A stretch of 34,298 bases of DNA. It comes from Candidatus Aphodousia faecigallinarum (GTDB taxonomy: Bacteria > Pseudomonadota > Gammaproteobacteria > Burkholderiales > Burkholderiaceae_F). The notes under the pieces were generated by a model, which was not told where the DNA came from, did no database searches, and saw only the letters and a program-made list of their open reading frames with translations. Numbering within the stretch: the stretch's first letter is position 1; each line of letters opens with the position of its first letter. A program made the translations under genes and the position numbers. Shown here piece by piece: positions 17,577-34,298 of the stretch. The stretch spans positions 1 through 34,298 of the forward strand of contig DVMY01000076.1 of assembly GCA_018714755.1 (NCBI GenBank), given 5' to 3'.

Positions 17577-20438
17577 TTAATCCTTTTGTTCCGTCGTTGC
17601 TTGTTCAACCAGCGCTTTCACAACGGTTGACAGTTTCATACAGTTTGAACCCTTCACGCTAACCGTATGACAACTTTTACTTTCAGAGAGCACTGATTCA
17701 ATAAATTGCTTTCTATCTTGCTGCCAAAGACTCATGGCGTTCGGGCTAAGAGACTTAAACTTTTCGACAGCGTAACGCATCTGATCGCCAGTCGCATAAA
17801 ACGCGTCAATATGTTTTTCCGCGGCATAAGCACCAATTTCTTCATGAAATTCAATGCTTTTTTGTCCTAATTCAGCCATATCACCCGCCACCAACATTCT
17901 TGGCGCAGGATAGGACACCAATAAGTCAATAGCAGCCTTCATGCTATCAGGATTGGCATTATAGGCATCATCAATTACGGTGAGCTTACCCACCTTATGA
18001 ACCTGTCCGCGCCCCTTGATCGCTTCGAATTGTTCCACTCCCTGTCGAATAACTTCAAGAGAAATATTAAGTCCCAAACAGACCGCCGTCGCGGCTAAAG
18101 CGTTCTTGAAATTGTGTTCACCGCGAACTTTCATTCTCGCTTCAAACGATCCGATCGGCGTTTTAATCAAAGCGGTCATCCCTGTGGAGTCGGTTCGCAT
18201 GCAACCGTTAACATCGGCCGTGGCATCTATTCCAAAAGTCATGACATTGGCTTGTTGCGCCATCTCCAACCAGATTGAACGGCAGGGATCATCTGCGGAA
18301 ATAACAGCGATGCCATTTGAAGGCAGCACTCGGAAAACTTCCCCGTTTTCACGCGCGGTCGCCTCCACGGACTGCAAAAATTCCTGGTGCTCTCTCTGGG
18401 CGTTGGTCACCACCGCTATGGTCGGTTGAACGAGACCGCTCAAATAGCGCATTTCTCCGACATGATTCATGCCGGTTTCAATAACCGCCGCTTCGTGATC
18501 GTCCCTTAAACGCCAGAGCATGATGGGCACGCCGATGTCATTGTTGAGATTGCCCTCTGTGGCTAACGCATGCTCTCCATATCGAGCCTTTAATATGGAA
18601 GCGATCATTTGCGTGGTGGTTGTTTTGCCATTGCTGCCCGCTACAGCCACCAAGCCTAAATTTCTACCGCGTCTCCAATAACCAGCGGTCACCCCCAAAG
18701 CTAATTTGACATCCTTAACAACAATCTGCGGCAGTGGACAATACACCTCATGATCGACCACCACCGCCGCGGCTCCCGCCCGCATGGCCTGCATGACAAA
18801 ATCGTGCCCGTCAAAACGTTCCCCCTTTAGGGCGAAAAATAAAGAGCCTTCTTTAACCTGACGGGTATCCGTGCACACATTGGTAAAGGGGACGTCGCTG
18901 CCGAGCAAATGCGATCCGGGTAAAAGTTTCGATAAGAATTTCACATTCAAGAGGGCATCCGCAGGGGGTGTTTTCAGGCGTTGAGCGTTTCGCGCTTCCA
19001 CCACGTCGCTAAACGGGTGTTTCACTCCCTTGATCTCTTGATAGAGTTCGTGACCTTTGCCAGCGATCAGCACAACGTCTTGAGGATCCGCCTCCTTAAT
19101 GGCAGTGTGAATAGCTTCGCGTCGGTCCACAATGATTCTTTCCGGCTGCTTTAGACCAGCGGCCATTTGACGCAAAATCAGCTCCGGATCTTCCCCACGG
19201 GGATTGTCGCTTGTCAGTATGACCCTATCGGCCCCCGCCTCGGCCACCTGAGCCATTATGGGACGCTTGCCGGCATCACGATCACCGCCCGCGCCTAAAA
19301 CGACCCAAAGTTTGCCGCGACGCACTTTGGCCACTCCCCTGAGAGCCTCCAGAGCTTTTTCAACCGCATCCGGCGTATGGCTGTAGTCCACAATAGCTAA
19401 CGCTGCACCCGTATAGGGTACTTTTTGCATGCGGCCGTCAGGAGCCACCAACAAGGGTAACTTTTCAACGATTTCTCCCAACGCGAACCCGCGGCACAAA
19501 GCCGCTCCGATCACACCCAGTAAATTGGAAATATTAAAAGCGCCAAAAACGGATAGGTGCACGGTATGGCGTTCGCCTTGATAGACGATGTCAAATTGCA
19601 TGCCCTCCGGCATGGGGCGAATATTTTCCGCAGCCAACAAGTGGGTCCCTGCTAAAGCGATCGTTCCGCGCATTGTGGTCACAATTGTGTGTATTGAACG
19701 ATGCGAGCAACGCTCAGCCATGCGAACACCGGCTTCATCATCAATATTGATCACCGCGTGCTTTAAACCGGGCCAATCGAAGAGAATCGCCTTGGCTCGT
19801 TCATAGGCTTGCATATCATGGTGGTAATCCAAATGATCTCTAGTTAAGTTCGTAAAAATTCCCACATCAAAATGCGTGCCTTGCAATCTTCCCTGTTCCA
19901 GCCCAATTGAGCTCGCCTCAAGAGCAAAAGCGCAAGCGTCCGCCTTCAAAAGCCGACGATACAATCCCTGAAGACTCACCGCGTCGGGCGTCGTAAGCGA
20001 AGCCGTTTCAAACTTTTGTCCTTGCATGAAGCAGCCAATGGTTCCAATGGCGGCACACTTTTGGCCCAATAAACTTAAAAGCTGCGAGAGCCAATGAGAA
20101 GTTGTGGTCTTACCGTTGGTTCCTGTGATACCGATGGCAAACAAGTTAGCGCTTGGATCCCGATAAAAGCCGGAAGCGAATTCACCCAAATGTTGACTTA
20201 AATTCGGCACGGCGATAGCGGGCACACCGAATGTACGACGCACTCCATCGTCTTCGTACACGAGCGCACACGCCTTCTGAGCCGCGTCGCTTAAAAACTC
20301 CCTTCCATCACGGTGCAGCCCCGGAACTGCAATAAAGACATCACCGTCTTGTAAGTTTCGAGAATCCAACGTTAAGCGCTTGGCCTCCGGCGCCAAGCGT
20401 CTTAACAAACTGACATAGGATTGAATGTTGTCAAGCAT
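17577..20438 (-). CDS. murEF: Bifunctional MurE-MurF fusion (UDP-MurNAc-tripeptide synthetase / D-Ala-D-Ala adding enzyme)
   Basis: Single 953-aa ORF. N-terminal half has GITGTNGKTTTSHWL, DNPRGEDPELI (MurE m-DAP motif). C-terminal half has VAGSNGKTTTTQMIASIL and DDAYNANPDSMKAA (MurF). Confidence 0.97.
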   Translation of the reverse strand: MLDNIQSYVSLLRRLAPEAKRLTLDSRNLQDGDVFIAVPGLHRDGREFLSDAAQKACALVYEDDGVRRTFGVPAIAVPNLSQHLGEFASGFYRDPSANLFAIGITGTNGKTTTSHWLSQLLSLLGQKCAAIGTIGCFMQGQKFETASLTTPDAVSLQGLYRRLLKADACAFALEASSIGLEQGRLQGTHFDVGIFTNLTRDHLDYHHDMQAYERAKAILFDWPGLKHAVINIDDEAGVRMAERCSHRSIHTIVTTMRGTIALAGTHLLAAENIRPMPEGMQFDIVYQGERHTVHLSVFGAFNISNLLGVIGAALCRGFALGEIVEKLPLLVAPDGRMQKVPYTGAALAIVDYSHTPDAVEKALEALRGVAKVRRGKLWVVLGAGGDRDAGKRPIMAQVAEAGADRVILTSDNPRGEDPELILRQMAAGLKQPERIIVDRREAIHTAIKEADPQDVVLIAGKGHELYQEIKGVKHPFSDVVEARNAQRLKTPPADALLNVKFLSKLLPGSHLLGSDVPFTNVCTDTRQVKEGSLFFALKGERFDGHDFVMQAMRAGAAAVVVDHEVYCPLPQIVVKDVKLALGVTAGYWRRGRNLGLVAVAGSNGKTTTTQMIASILKARYGEHALATEGNLNNDIGVPIMLWRLRDDHEAAVIETGMNHVGEMRYLSGLVQPTIAVVTNAQREHQEFLQSVEATARENGEVFRVLPSNGIAVISADDPCRSIWLEMAQQANVMTFGIDATADVNGCMRTDSTGMTALIKTPIGSFEARMKVRGEHNFKNALAATAVCLGLNISLEVIRQGVEQFEAIKGRGQVHKVGKLTVIDDAYNANPDSMKAAIDLLVSYPAPRMLVAGDMAELGQKSIEFHEEIGAYAAEKHIDAFYATGDQMRYAVEKFKSLSPNAMSLWQQDRKQFIESVLSESKSCHTVSVKGSNCMKLSTVVKALVEQATTEQKD

Positions 20439-28560: not shown

Positions 28561-29840
28561 CCTTTTCTATGATCGGAGCCACTGTCATAGTGCTCTTAAC
28601 AATCGCAGCCCTTCTGAAACGATGGGAAACACGCCTAGTGTTGATTACCGCGGGTCTTGCCATGGGGATCATCAGCCTCGCGCCCAATATCGCGCTTGGC
28701 AACATGATGAAAAACATGACCAACGCCTCAATGATTTTGGCCATTTGCTCCTCATTGGGTTTCGCGGCGGTCGTTTCAATGACCCGATGCGATGTGCATT
28801 TTGTAGGTCTTCTGGTTAAACCGCTTGGGAAATTGGGCTTTTTCCTTTTGCCGTTTTGCATGTTGGTGGCCTCCTGCGTGGCTATTGCCATTCCCTCTGC
28901 CGCTGGATGCGCGGCAGCGCTCGGCCCCACAATGATTCCTTTAATGGTGAGAGCCGGCTTTAGGCCCGCCATTGCGGGCGCAGCCATCATCGGCTCCATC
29001 ATCCCATCTGCCCTCTCACCGGGATCTAGCCACAACGTTTGGGTGGCCAAGATTTCCAATATGGAAGTGATGGATCTTATCGTCCAATTCGCACCGAAGA
29101 TTCTCGTTTTGTGCGCCCTCAACATCATCATGGTCACGGCGATGATTTTTGTGTTCAGAGACTACAAAAAGAATGCCGGCAATCAAGGTGATGTGTTTGA
29201 AGTGGCAAGCGACGCCCGTGGTGAGTTGCCCGAACACGTCAACTTCTTCTACGCCATCGCTCCGATCCTTCCGATCGTTCTTTTGATGCTTGGCGCGACC
29301 TGCGTGCCCGCCCTCAAAATGAGCGTGGCAGAAGCCATGATTTACGGCACGATTTACACCCTTTTGGTCACTCGAGCCAATCCTGAAAAACTCACGAAAG
29401 AATTTTTCAATGGCATGGGTAAAGGCTACGCCAATATTCTGGGCATCATCGTGGCGGCCGGTTGCTTCGCGGGTGGCCTTCAAGCCGCGGGCGTCATCGA
29501 CGCTTTGATTGAATCGCTTAAAAATTCAAAGGAAATCGCCGCGCTCGCCGCCAATTTCGGACCCTTCTTAATGGGCGTTTTAACCGGCTCGGGTGATGCG
29601 GCGGGGCACGCCTTTAACCAGGCCGTCACTCCATACGCCGCGGAATTTGGAATGAAAGTGCCCAACCTTGGCGTTGTCGCGTCGTTGTCCGGCGCCTTGG
29701 GACGTATGTGTTCGCCGATTGCAGGCGCCACATTGGTGGTGGCCGGCATGATTAAGGCGAGTCCCTTGGAAGTCTCGAAACGCATGGCCATCCCGATGAT
29801 TGTCAATGTCATCTTATTAGGCTTTATCTTTGAACTCTAA
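28557..29840 (+). CDS. DcuC-like C4-dicarboxylate/anion transporter family membrane protein
   Basis: 427 aa polytopic membrane protein with IPSAAGCAAALGPTMIPLM...SALSPGSSHNVWVA and LTGSGDAAGHAFNQAVTP, typical of the DcuC family. 4-nt ATGA overlap with the DUF1177 gene. Confidence 0.8.
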   Translation: MTFSMIGATVIVLLTIAALLKRWETRLVLITAGLAMGIISLAPNIALGNMMKNMTNASMILAICSSLGFAAVVSMTRCDVHFVGLLVKPLGKLGFFLLPFCMLVASCVAIAIPSAAGCAAALGPTMIPLMVRAGFRPAIAGAAIIGSIIPSALSPGSSHNVWVAKISNMEVMDLIVQFAPKILVLCALNIIMVTAMIFVFRDYKKNAGNQGDVFEVASDARGELPEHVNFFYAIAPILPIVLLMLGATCVPALKMSVAEAMIYGTIYTLLVTRANPEKLTKEFFNGMGKGYANILGIIVAAGCFAGGLQAAGVIDALIESLKNSKEIAALAANFGPFLMGVLTGSGDAAGHAFNQAVTPYAAEFGMKVPNLGVVASLSGALGRMCSPIAGATLVVAGMIKASPLEVSKRMAIPMIVNVILLGFIFEL

Positions 29841-29853
29841 ACAGGATACAAAC

Positions 29854-31125
29854 ATGACCGCGCACGATTACAAAAAACAAATGGTCGCCGATCGTCGGTG
29901 GCTGCACGCCCACCCTGAAGAAGGCTGGTGTGAATTTGAAACCACGTATTTCATCGTCAAACGTTTGGAAGAATTAGGACTCAAGGCGCTTTGCGGCATT
30001 GAAGTGATTGAACCGAGCGCCGTGATGGGTCGCAATGAACAAACCGTTCAAGCGGCTCAAGCTCGTGCTTTAGAGCACGGAGTTCCAGCCGAATTCTTAA
30101 AACGCCTTGGCGGCTACACCGGAGCTATGGCTGTTTTGGAAACCGGCCGCCCCGGTCCTGTCACCGCGATTCGTGTCGATATTGACTGTCTCCCGATTGA
30201 GGAAACAACTGATCCTAAACACGAGGCCAATCAAGGACATTACCGTTCGGAATATCCGGGCTTTTCTCACGCCTGCGGTCATGACGGTCACACGGCGGTC
30301 GGCTTGGGGGTCGCCGCTTGGCTCGCCGACAATAAGAACCAATTAAACGGAACAGTCAAAGTTCTTTTCCAACCGGCCGAAGAAGGGGTACGAGGTGCCG
30401 CCGCCATGGCAGCCAAAGGCATTGTTGATGATGTCAACTGGTTTGCGGGCGCTCATATCGGCTGCTCAGCCTACTTGGGACAAGTAGGTGTTTCTCACCA
30501 AGGCTATTTAGCCACCACCAAGTTTGACCTTGAATACGACGGCATTCAAGCCGCGGCAGGCTCCCCTGAAAATGGAAGAAGCGCCTTGATGTGCGCTGCC
30601 GCCACCTGCATGTCCTTGGGCTCACTGCCCGGCCACAGCGAAGGCATCACACGTGTTCAAATCGGCAAACTCATTTCCGGTGTCGGCCGCAATATTGTGG
30701 CGCCTCATGCCTACATGCAATTGGAAGTTCGCGGTGAAAGCACCAAGATCAATGACTATTTGGCCGCCAATGTCGAAATGACTGTCAAAGGCATGGCCGC
30801 CGCTTACGGTGTGCAATATCGATTGACGCGCATGGGCGAAGCCGTTACCTATAAGGGTGACGAAGAAGCGGTCGAGGCGGTGAAAGCGGCCGCCCGCGAC
30901 GTCCCCGGCGTTGAATCTGTGGTGGATATGAACGCTAAAGTGGGCAGCGAAGACTGCACCATGTTGATTCGTCGTGTGCAAGAGCACGGCGGCAAAGCCG
31001 CATTCTTCTACTATGGCTGCAACCATCCCGGACACCATCGCGCGGATTTCTGCATTCAAGATGAAGTGTCTTTGCCGATAGGCTGGGGCGTCTTCACTAA
31101 CTTTATTAAAGGTCGCAACGCCTAA
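29854..31125 (+). CDS. M20 family amidohydrolase, AbgA-like
   Basis: RRWLHAHPEEGWCEFETT, FSHACGHDGHTAVGLG, FQPAEEGVRGAAAMAAKGIVDDV and SEDCTMLIRRVQEHGG closely match p-aminobenzoyl-glutamate hydrolase subunit A from memory. RBS upstream of ATG 29854. Confidence 0.85.
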   Translation: MTAHDYKKQMVADRRWLHAHPEEGWCEFETTYFIVKRLEELGLKALCGIEVIEPSAVMGRNEQTVQAAQARALEHGVPAEFLKRLGGYTGAMAVLETGRPGPVTAIRVDIDCLPIEETTDPKHEANQGHYRSEYPGFSHACGHDGHTAVGLGVAAWLADNKNQLNGTVKVLFQPAEEGVRGAAAMAAKGIVDDVNWFAGAHIGCSAYLGQVGVSHQGYLATTKFDLEYDGIQAAAGSPENGRSALMCAAATCMSLGSLPGHSEGITRVQIGKLISGVGRNIVAPHAYMQLEVRGESTKINDYLAANVEMTVKGMAAAYGVQYRLTRMGEAVTYKGDEEAVEAVKAAARDVPGVESVVDMNAKVGSEDCTMLIRRVQEHGGKAAFFYYGCNHPGHHRADFCIQDEVSLPIGWGVFTNFIKGRNA

Positions 31126-31151
31126 TAGTTCACAAAATTCCCTGTACTTTT

Positions 31152-31188
31152 GCTCAATAGGAGTTCATCTTCTATTGAGCGTTTTTTT
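31152..31188 (+). terminator. Rho-independent terminator of the DUF1177 operon
   Basis: GCTCAATAG-gagttcatctt-CTATTGAGC followed by GTTTTTTT, 27 nt after the amidohydrolase stop. Confidence 0.88.
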
Positions 31189-31284: not shown

Positions 31285-31313
31285 TTGTGCTACCCACCTA
31301 TTGCTCCTATAAT
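31285..31313 (+). promoter_or_regulatory. Putative sigma70 promoter of the autotransporter gene
   Basis: TTGTGC - 17 nt - TATAAT (perfect -10, weak -35), about 43 nt upstream of ATG 31356. Confidence 0.6.
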
Positions 31314-31355
31314 GGCCTAGCTATCAAAACAATCGCTTCAACAAGGAGTTTCAAC

Positions 31356-34298
31356 ATGAAGCAATTAAATAAACCCATTTCTCATACCTGCCCCCCCCCG
31401 AAAACTCTTCTATAAATTATCTTTCCCGCACGAAGTTATCACTGATAACTGCCGCTGTTTTTGCCACATTTGTTACTTCTGATGCATTAGCAAACGTTAC
31501 TATCAAGGGAACAGTTACTATAAATGATCAAGTTGTCGAAGTAGATCAAACAACGAATGTTTCTCTCGGTAGCGACGGTGATGTGATCAATATCGAAGGG
31601 AATGAAAACAATGCCTTGTACGTTAATGGAGACAATCTCAGCCTTGACGGTTCAAAAATTAATGTCGAAGCCACTGGTGGCGCTGCCGTTTCCACACAAA
31701 AAAATACCACTAACGTCAATATTGGGTCTCTGAACACAGAATACGTTAATTTAAACGGTTACAAAAATGGAGTTAAAGCCATTTCTGGCTCAATTGTTTC
31801 TGTTGATTCAAACAACCAAATCTATATCGGAACCGTTGATTCTGATGTTAGCAGTACAGACTTATCTGCGCTTTACTCAAGTGGCGCCTCAATAACAGTT
31901 GGCCAGAATGCCAAACAAATTTTCCTGAATACTGAAACGTCCGCTAAATCCTCAACAAAAGATGCACTTGGGATTTACGCAGTCAAAAATGGGAATGTGT
32001 CTGTCGGCAACGAAAATGCTGAAGAGGTGCAAATCAATGTTAACCAAGTCAGCTCTGCCATAGGAATTTGGTCTATAGGGGACAATAGCACCCCTTCATC
32101 CACCGTTGAAATCAGCGGTAAAAAATTAAGCATGGTCACATCTTCCGGAGGCGAGGCTCGCGGCATCGCGGCTCACAATGGCGGGAATGTTCAATTAAAT
32201 GGTGAGTCTATTACGTTGACCGCCACGAGTACAGGAGCGGCCGTAAGAGATAAACATTCTAAAGCCACAGGTATTGAAGTTTTCAGTGAACAGGACGGCA
32301 TCTCTGAAGTCACCCTGAATGCTCAATCAATCAGCTCAACGGCTATTGCAGAAGTTGAAGCCATCGGTGCTTACACAGGAACCAATAGTGTTTTAAATAT
32401 TAGTTCGGATAAAACTCAAAATATTTCCATTAGTGCAATCAATAAACAAGCAACCGATTCTTCTCGCGCGTACGGTTTATGGGTTGACAATACCGCCAGC
32501 TTGGATAAAAGTGGAGGCAAAGTCAATATAAGCGCTAAAACAGTTACAGTCTCTGCGCAAGGGAGTACCGACATCCGCGCCATTCACGTTGCCAGCAACA
32601 ATTTAGATCAAGAGGAACGATCTCAACTGACTATTGACGCAGATAAAGTTATTATCGAAGCGCAGTCAACCGATTCAAGTAGTAAAGCAGCCGGCATTTC
32701 CGCCATGAGTGCCGGCGATGTTTCAATTCTCGGCGACACCTTCATCACTGCTGACAATGCAATTCAAGCTAGAGGGGACGCTCAGGTCTTAATTAACAAG
32801 GACTCAGATCATACGACACAAATCAATGGTGACATTGTTTTTACGTACGATGCTGAAACCTCCGGCACAGGCGTTGACGCTACTGTTGACATAACATTAT
32901 CCGGTGAAAATTCCTACCTTGAGGGCCAAAGCAAAATTACAGGCAATCCCCCGCAAGAGAAGTCTGACGTTAAAAACTTCTCTATGACAATGACCCAAGG
33001 CGGCACGTGGAAAGTAACTGGCGACAGTTTTGTCAACCACCTCAATCTGCAAGACGCAGGCTCCGTGTCACTTCTTAAGGAAACGGGCACTTTCTCAGCC
33101 GACAATCTTTCCATGGACGGCGGCGTGATTCAAACCTCTTCTGCCGAACAAAAAGTGAAAGTGCAAACGTTAAAGCTCAGTCAAAATGGCGGCACATTGA
33201 ACGCTTCGAGCGTTGCCAATCAAGATGGCTCTATCTCCACCGCCACGCTTTCTGTCGGCTCTGTTGAAGAAGGCCAAGGCGGCGCTCTCAATGTTAACTA
33301 TTCCGGCATTAATTCCGACCAAATCACTGAGAAAAATGCCTCTGACTTGAAAGCGGTCCAACTGGCTGAAACGGCCGACGGAATTGCCATGACTGAAGTG
33401 GTCGAAGAAGGCGACATTAACGGTAAATGGACAAGAACGACAACGGCTGATGGTCAAACGAATACGACACAAGCGGCTAACACCAAGCTTGCCGACTACA
33501 GTTCTGTCAACGCCATGAGTTTGGTCCAGTGGAGAAATGAAATCAATCACCTCACCAAACGTTTGGGCGACCTTCGCGCTTCTGAGTCTGCGATTGGCGC
33601 CTGGGCTCGTGTTTATGGCGGTGAATCCGAATGGGGCTCCGGCGACGAAATCAGCATGGATCACACCACCATTCAAGTCGGCGGCGACTATCGCATCAAT
33701 CCCAATTTGATTGTCGGCGGCGCCTTCTCCTATACAGACTCTGACGCGGATCTGGTCAATGGCAGCGCAGACGGCAAGTCTTACAGTCTTGCCGCTTATG
33801 CCACATACCTCACAAACACCGGCTCTTATTTGGACGTCATTGGTCGGTATGGTTATTTGAAGAATGACATTCATGCCGGCAACATGAAGCTTGACACGGA
33901 CTCCAATGCCTTCAGTCTGTCCATGGAAGGCGGGCACACATTCCGTTTCATGCAAGAACGTGCCTACATTGAACCTCAGGTCGAATTAACCTACGGCTTT
34001 ATTTCCGGCGATAACGCTAAAGCATCCAATCAAGTCAAAATTGAGCAAGATGACTATCAAAGCTTGATCACCAGACTCGGTGTCCGCGCCGGGATGAATT
34101 TCCCTGAAAAGGCGGGAACCGTCTATGCCACAGTTTCCTATTCGTATGATTTCTTGGGTGAAGCCGAAGGCAAAGCCATTAAGAACAACGTCACGAGCGA
34201 TCTCAGCGAAGATCTCGGAGGCGGTTGGGTTACCTATGGCGTTGGCACCCAATTCCAATTAGGGAAACAAGCCTACGTTTACGGTGAACTGGAACGCA
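31356..34298 (+). CDS. Type V autotransporter, out of frame in this sequence because of a 9-C tract; C-terminus cut by window edge
   Basis: ATG 31356 with AAGGAG SD gives MKQLNKPISHTCPPPKTLL* (stop right after the C-tract). The +1 frame is open from the tract to base 34298: SRTKLSLITAAVFATFVTSDALA signal peptide, beta-helix-like passenger, then a beta-domain (SAIGAWARVYGGESEW...TIQVGGDYRINPNLIVGGAFSYTDSDADL...SYSLAAYATYL...YIEPQVELTYGF). Confidence 0.85.
31391..31399 (+). repeat. Poly-C homopolymer tract (9 C), candidate contingency locus
   Basis: Nine consecutive C residues within the extreme 5' coding region of the autotransporter, exactly where the reading frame breaks. Confidence 0.9.

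Follow-up and report, generated by a model that had tools for sequence, protein, structure and literature searches.

The last gene of the analysed DNA, a stretch of 34,298 nucleotides (the window), is best explained as a classical (type Va) autotransporter of a Parasutterella species. With a probability of roughly 0.87, judged from sequence comparisons, it is translationally phase-variable, caught in the OFF register and one of a phasome shared by the genus. Near its 5' end lies a run of nine C (C9). Since most of the long C/G runs of these genomes mark the start or the promoter of surface-protein genes, this run very probably switches the gene on and off at random. The features of the locus, all on the plus strand, are the following.

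31151..31181, plus strand: hairpin resembling an intrinsic terminator (13 pairs and a T run), after the upstream M20 peptidase gene
31285..31313, plus strand: probable promoter, read from the sequence: TTGTGC (31285-31290), a 17-nt spacer and TATAAT (31308-31313)
31343..31348, plus strand: Shine-Dalgarno AAGGAG, read from the sequence
31356..31358, plus strand: start codon ATG of the short frame
31356..31415, plus strand: short frame opened by the true start codon, with 19 codons before TAA; the OFF product
31391..31399, plus strand: C9 tract in the signal-peptide n-region, the presumed slipped-strand switch
31400..34297, plus strand: remaining autotransporter frame, 966 codons, free of stops, reaching the contig end; one base off the ATG frame
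31433..31492, plus strand: hydrophobic core of the signal peptide, KLSLITAAVFATFVTSDALA
31487..32839, plus strand: passenger domain, a beta-helix by structure prediction, residues about 30-480, block pLDDT mostly 75-96
33599..34291, plus strand: autotransporter beta-barrel (PF03797); the nearest solved folds are the translocators of EspP, BrkA, Hbp and NalP

The frame of ATG 31356 reads MKQLNKPISHTCPPPKTLL-stop, with the stop codon at 31413-31415, while the autotransporter frame is open from just past a TAA at 31370-31372 and runs off the window where the contig (C43) ends as well. Ahead of the signal peptide this second frame contains no ATG, GTG or TTG: the earliest is a GTG at 31583, beyond the signal peptide. 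A CTG (31388-31390) does lie in the right frame, and translation from it, or from some other downstream or non-standard start, would make the tract irrelevant. This is highly improbable: the CTG has no Shine-Dalgarno, the ATG has a strong one, and none of the usual start codons precedes the signal peptide. The promoter combines a weak -35 with a perfect -10, is free of homopolymers, and was left out by the automated promoter scan, whose -35 threshold is 4/6. The hairpin at 31151-31181 separates the gene from that of the M20 peptidase (29830-31125). M20 peptidases are strongly multiplied, with 17 matches in the incomplete genome of the window and up to 24 in relatives. Elsewhere in the window, a single frame of 953 aa (17577-20438, minus strand) carries two sets of Mur ligase domains and is a probable MurE-MurF fusion, in an apparent division and cell-wall gene cluster.

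The C-terminal beta-barrel that defines type Va autotransporters is recognised by both PF03797 (160.7 bits against a cut-off of 26, E=7.1e-47, residues 734-964 of 966) and TIGR01414 (161.8 bits against 16). Assignment to the BafA family (NF040482) was rejected: the match scores 47.4 bits against a cut-off of 700 and is confined to the barrel region. The structure predicted from an alignment of seven sequences features a well-scored beta-helix, followed by a linker helix and by a barrel of lower confidence; among solved structures, Foldseek matches it best to the translocators of EspP, BrkA and Hbp. Signal peptide, beta-helical passenger and barrel are thus all present and predicted to fold, with the start codon in a different frame in the assembly, and the model indicates an intact protein whose sole defect is the register at the C9 tract. 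Relative to the closest homologue, from P. secunda, dN/dS is about 0.30 in the passenger and about 0.15 in the barrel. The sequence-only reading had described an ATG with AAGGAG, nine C and an early stop, followed, in the +1 frame, by more than 950 codons running to the window edge, lacking a usual start before the signal peptide, ending in an autotransporter beta-domain and showing no decay: the positions prove exact, the frame counts 966 codons at a one-base offset, its first usual start is the GTG at 31583, the domain is PF03797, and the uninterrupted frame, the predicted beta-helix and barrel and the dN/dS values agree with the absence of decay.

A fixed frameshift, marking a pseudogene in early decay, might be suspected from the shifted frame in the window's own genome, the tract-free P. 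secunda homologue being intact. Such a pseudogene was rejected on the intactness of the frame, and is very improbable: 966 stop-free codons and a well-folding model speak against it, and the frameshift coincides exactly with a long C/G run, of which the genome has just 11.

As a separate observation, the 3' half of the autotransporter (32852-34297) shares 97.1% DNA identity with a P. secunda autotransporter, while identity to the same species is about 50-60% in the 5' passenger and 77.8% in the neighbouring peptidase gene. This sharp mosaic boundary suggests a recent interspecies exchange of the translocator half.

C9 is the sole C/G run longer than 6 within the 34 kb window. Since 0.24 such runs per window are already expected from base frequencies, a single C9 is, in isolation, weak evidence: its significance comes from the genome-wide pattern, obtained by pattern searches. 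The assembly of the window is a Parasutterella MAG (1.496 Mb in 108 short contigs, 75.9% complete). It contains 11 C/G runs of 8-11 and only one of exactly 7; in nine genomes of the genus, 90 runs of at least 8 are found, along with 29 of exactly 7. Run lengths are therefore bimodal: a chance distribution declines with length, while the observed one climbs again. One genome of the genus (G005) has zero PF03797 matches and zero C/G runs of at least 8. Among genus autotransporters, counted when they match PF03797 and have a frame of 400 aa or more, 32 out of 79 carry a tract within -600 to +300 of the 5' end, against 0.42 expected (binomial P ~1e-51); the remaining 47 do not, which counts against the best explanation. 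C9 exceeds the cut-offs used in Bordetella (>8; PMC1891110) and in Campylobacter (>=7; PMC6321876) and, as expected of a translational SSR, is an above-chance homopolymer in the 5' coding region, whose length alters the frame.

In the MAG, 7 of the 11 runs mark genes with a surface function recognised by Pfam: four PF03797 autotransporters (contigs C43, C72, C18 and C51), one ESPR adhesin (C108) and two O-acyltransferases (C59, C70). The runs on C24 and C6 mark proteins with a signal peptide and no Pfam match; in P. secunda an autotransporter occupies the position syntenic to C6, beside a gene of 96% identity. The run on C62 lies just upstream of a gene start, at the contig end, and that at C59:27869 splits a gene of unknown type, which bears a tract in two other species as well. 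Genes of this last type, without Pfam match, have the tract inside the gene in all three species (G008 C4:21820 and G001 C67:40278 being the others) and lie near polysaccharide genes; an ABC-type exporter, judged from sequence, is found near C59:27869.

Across the genus, Pfam places tracts, beyond the autotransporters, at five further ESPR genes, six porins, five Acyl_transf_3, one MBOAT, four GT2 glycosyltransferases, one TupA-like enzyme, two sulfatase/EptA-type transferases, one DNA methylase and one ResIII helicase. In total, 59 of the 90 tracts are at recognisable surface-structure or restriction-modification genes, a count which takes in one tract inside an autotransporter passenger (G004, contig C9); about 19 have no assignment, and a few seem unrelated to the surface, such as those adjoining UvrA and DcuA/B genes. 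Three further cases may be mentioned. A G8 run lies in the frame of an N6/N4 DNA methylase (G004 C17:14978, PF01555), a candidate phase-variable methyltransferase. Three poly-G runs (G003 C2:92392, 92855 and 93399), all within about 1 kb, separate short genes whose starts resemble one another (M.SGYVT.DGKDLDSRYLGI...) and which possibly encode phage tail proteins. In G006 a pair of poly-G runs about 180 bp apart (C67:895 and 1077) face outward, each into a secreted-protein gene, and are possibly divergent, switchable promoters. Autotransporter genes with G9-G10 beside -10-like hexamers are also found on Duodenibacillus MAG contigs, so the habit of carrying tracts reaches past the genus.

Coding tracts, the class to which the window gene belongs, are placed, in unrelated proteins, downstream of the ATG and ahead of the signal peptide's hydrophobic core, a region that presumably tolerates additional prolines. 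In other genomes in-frame starts are found (MRFVAPPV..., MRYTPPQF..., MIDIAPPRN..., MSIRVAPPH..., MFSIKNLPPPK...), while those of the MAG are out of frame (MKQLNKPISHTCPPP, MRKFAPP, MRKFAPPP). By contig, 5' coding tracts are in frame in G004 (P. secunda; C4, C7, C13, C14), G008 (C13), G001 (C12) and G003 (C1), and shifted in the MAG of the window (C43 by +1, C51 by +1, C6 by -1) and in G006 (C49 by -1), among others. Since both homologous and non-homologous genes show the same arrangement in frame elsewhere, the in-frame register appears to be the functional one and the window copy to be in the OFF register. The idea that the gene is switched off rather than dead, already put forward in the sequence-only reading, is supported by these in-frame counterparts, those of P. 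secunda among them, together with the undamaged frame; its phase-variation reading gains from the concentration of long C/G runs at 5' ends and promoters of surface-structure genes, in the genome and throughout the genus.

The varying offset also bears on programmed ribosomal or transcriptional slippage at the poly-C, which would yield a constant low level of full protein, with no genetic switching. Homopolymers are able to provoke transcriptional slippage, which gives the idea its general plausibility. A programmed shift, however, would hold one offset, and the register needed differs from gene to gene (+1 for C43 and C51; -1 for C6, G006 C49 and others; 0 for many): programmed frameshifting was rejected for this reason, and has very little probability left.

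A consensus error of one C in the MAG is possible at C9. If the homopolymer was misassembled or miscalled, and the true consensus is in frame, the gene would simply be ON. The source is, indeed, a MAG of 108 contigs, and all three of its autotransporter-type 5' coding tracts (C43, C51, C6) are out of frame, while the genome of P. secunda strain ET73 has its four tracts in frame. Yet shifted tracts are found in 98%-complete genomes as well (G003 C4:451 and C8:67252; G008 C4:26828), and the MAG itself has its acyltransferase tract in frame. On balance, an error is unlikely, though far from negligible. A one-C error leaves, moreover, an equally long tract: the captured state would change, not the nature of the locus, which is then the same switch in the ON register.

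For the window gene, the downstream sequence of G004, G008, G006 and G007 features no autotransporter after the peptidase that precedes it; a same-locus comparison is therefore not available, and a syntenic locus shared by G000 (the MAG; contig C6) and G004 (contig C4) was used instead. There the spacing from ATG to C9 is kept, the flanks have diverged, and the registers differ between the two species: out of frame in G000, in frame in G004. The closest homologue of the window gene, from P. secunda (71% identity), has no tract and a different locus; being tract-free, non-syntenic and beside a transposase-like gene, it was rejected as an ortholog for the window tract. The tract is thus not conserved with its gene family.

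In the preferred reading, that of a phase-variable gene, replication of the C tract would, through slipped-strand mispairing, add or remove C's, so that the ATG gains or loses the frame of the signal peptide. With the tract as captured, ribosomes starting at ATG 31356 would stop after 19 codons, and no protein would be exported; the right change in tract length would allow the whole adhesin-like protein to be made. The tract would be one member of a dispersed phasome, of at least 11 tracts in the incomplete genome and, over all nine genus genomes, about 90, acting in 5' coding regions or promoters and together diversifying the outer surface among sister cells. The anatomy of the locus, the intact protein, the genome-wide enrichment, the mixed registers at like sites and the retention of a tract at a locus syntenic in two species are the observations behind this mechanism. 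Since the comparison spans assemblies, with one genome per species, we infer from them the slippage itself and its rate, the benefit it would bring, and the loss of protein when the gene is OFF.

A second class of tracts, in promoters, is present in the same genome. Here a poly-G of 8-11 lies between a TTGAYN4RTCAA box, which is the FNR consensus, and a -10-like hexamer directly abutting the tract (TAGCGT, TAAAGT, TAGAGT, CAGAAT...; on average 3.1/6 matches to TATAAT, versus 1.5 for random). The genus set includes 17 such promoters, which belong to surface-protein genes, four of them in the MAG (C24:2318, C62:3519, C72:19641, C108:4081), with a distance from box to tract end of 15-22, mostly 20-22. 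A looser pattern finds 37 overlapping matches, and its reversed-pattern control zero. The stricter one occurs in 13 out of 67 genomes and 3 out of 18 genera of the family; among 386 sampled genomes from the rest of the class, two have it, with one occurrence each, and the reversed control likewise turns up once. The architecture is thus nearly confined to the family. The window gene, with its plain TATAAT promoter, falls outside this class, and other promoter tracts lie between a TTGACA-like -35 and the -10.

At the Pfam cut-off, a single Crp/Fnr-type regulator is recognised in each genome of the genus; that of the MAG passes the NCBIfam Fnr model (231 versus 228 bits) and carries a C-x2-C-x5-C cluster motif and an ETVSR recognition helix. 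A box centred near -40 would be in the position of class II activation, so tract length would set the spacing between activator and polymerase, much like the C-stretch of the Bordetella fim promoters, whose activator is BvgA. If the predicted FNR box drives these promoters, the second set of adhesins would be expressed only when the cell is anaerobic and the poly-G length permissive. A two-layer surface switch in Parasutterella and relatives, made of random coding C tracts and of putative FNR-gated poly-G promoters dependent on tract length, is at present a matter of even odds. The promoter class looks like the novel part, and the one most worth testing: among open-licence papers nothing relevant was found on FNR together with homopolymeric phase variation, itself weak evidence of novelty.

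Few colonisation factors are known for Parasutterella, a genus of gut commensals. Should dozens of loci make its surface phase-variable, the presence or absence of genes in a strain would fail to predict the adhesins, porins and glycans on display, and genes listed as broken in metagenome assemblies would merely reflect whichever ON/OFF state was captured. The FNR-box/poly-G promoters offer a directly testable link from oxygen sensing to random switching, and deep gut metagenomes that already exist could be used to read the homopolymer loci.

No description of phase variation or autotransporters in Parasutterella or Sutterella was found in open-licence papers, which is limited evidence; the switching mechanism is already known, and the window gene adds a further case. 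Phase variation is proven, within the same order, for the autotransporter genes bapC and tcfA of Bordetella pertussis, whose coding-region C/G tracts vary within single cultures or colonies (PMC1891110). They share with the window gene the order, the protein class and a coding-region homopolymer of 9-11 C/G, and the B. pertussis reference genome also records bapC in an out-of-frame register (PMC1891110). Length variation was, however, measured there, while for the window gene we infer it; orthology of these genes to the window gene is not established, and the tcfA tract starts at codon 130, unlike that of the window, which lies in the signal-peptide n-region (PMC1891110). The SSR phasomes of Campylobacter and Neisseria are similar in their many dispersed tracts, in the surface-structure genes affected and in the mixture of translational and transcriptional switches (PMC6321876, PMC5953494), and the window tract exceeds the Campylobacter cut-off of at least 7 G/C (PMC6321876); they belong, however, to other lineages, and the Parasutterella set is rich in autotransporters. 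The second tract class resembles, finally, the fim2, fim3 and fimX promoters (a C-stretch and a fim box) of Bordetella, the organism of bapC and tcfA, in having a promoter homopolymer whose length would set transcription (PMC1891110), but differs from them in the FNR-type box upstream and in the tract abutting the -10.
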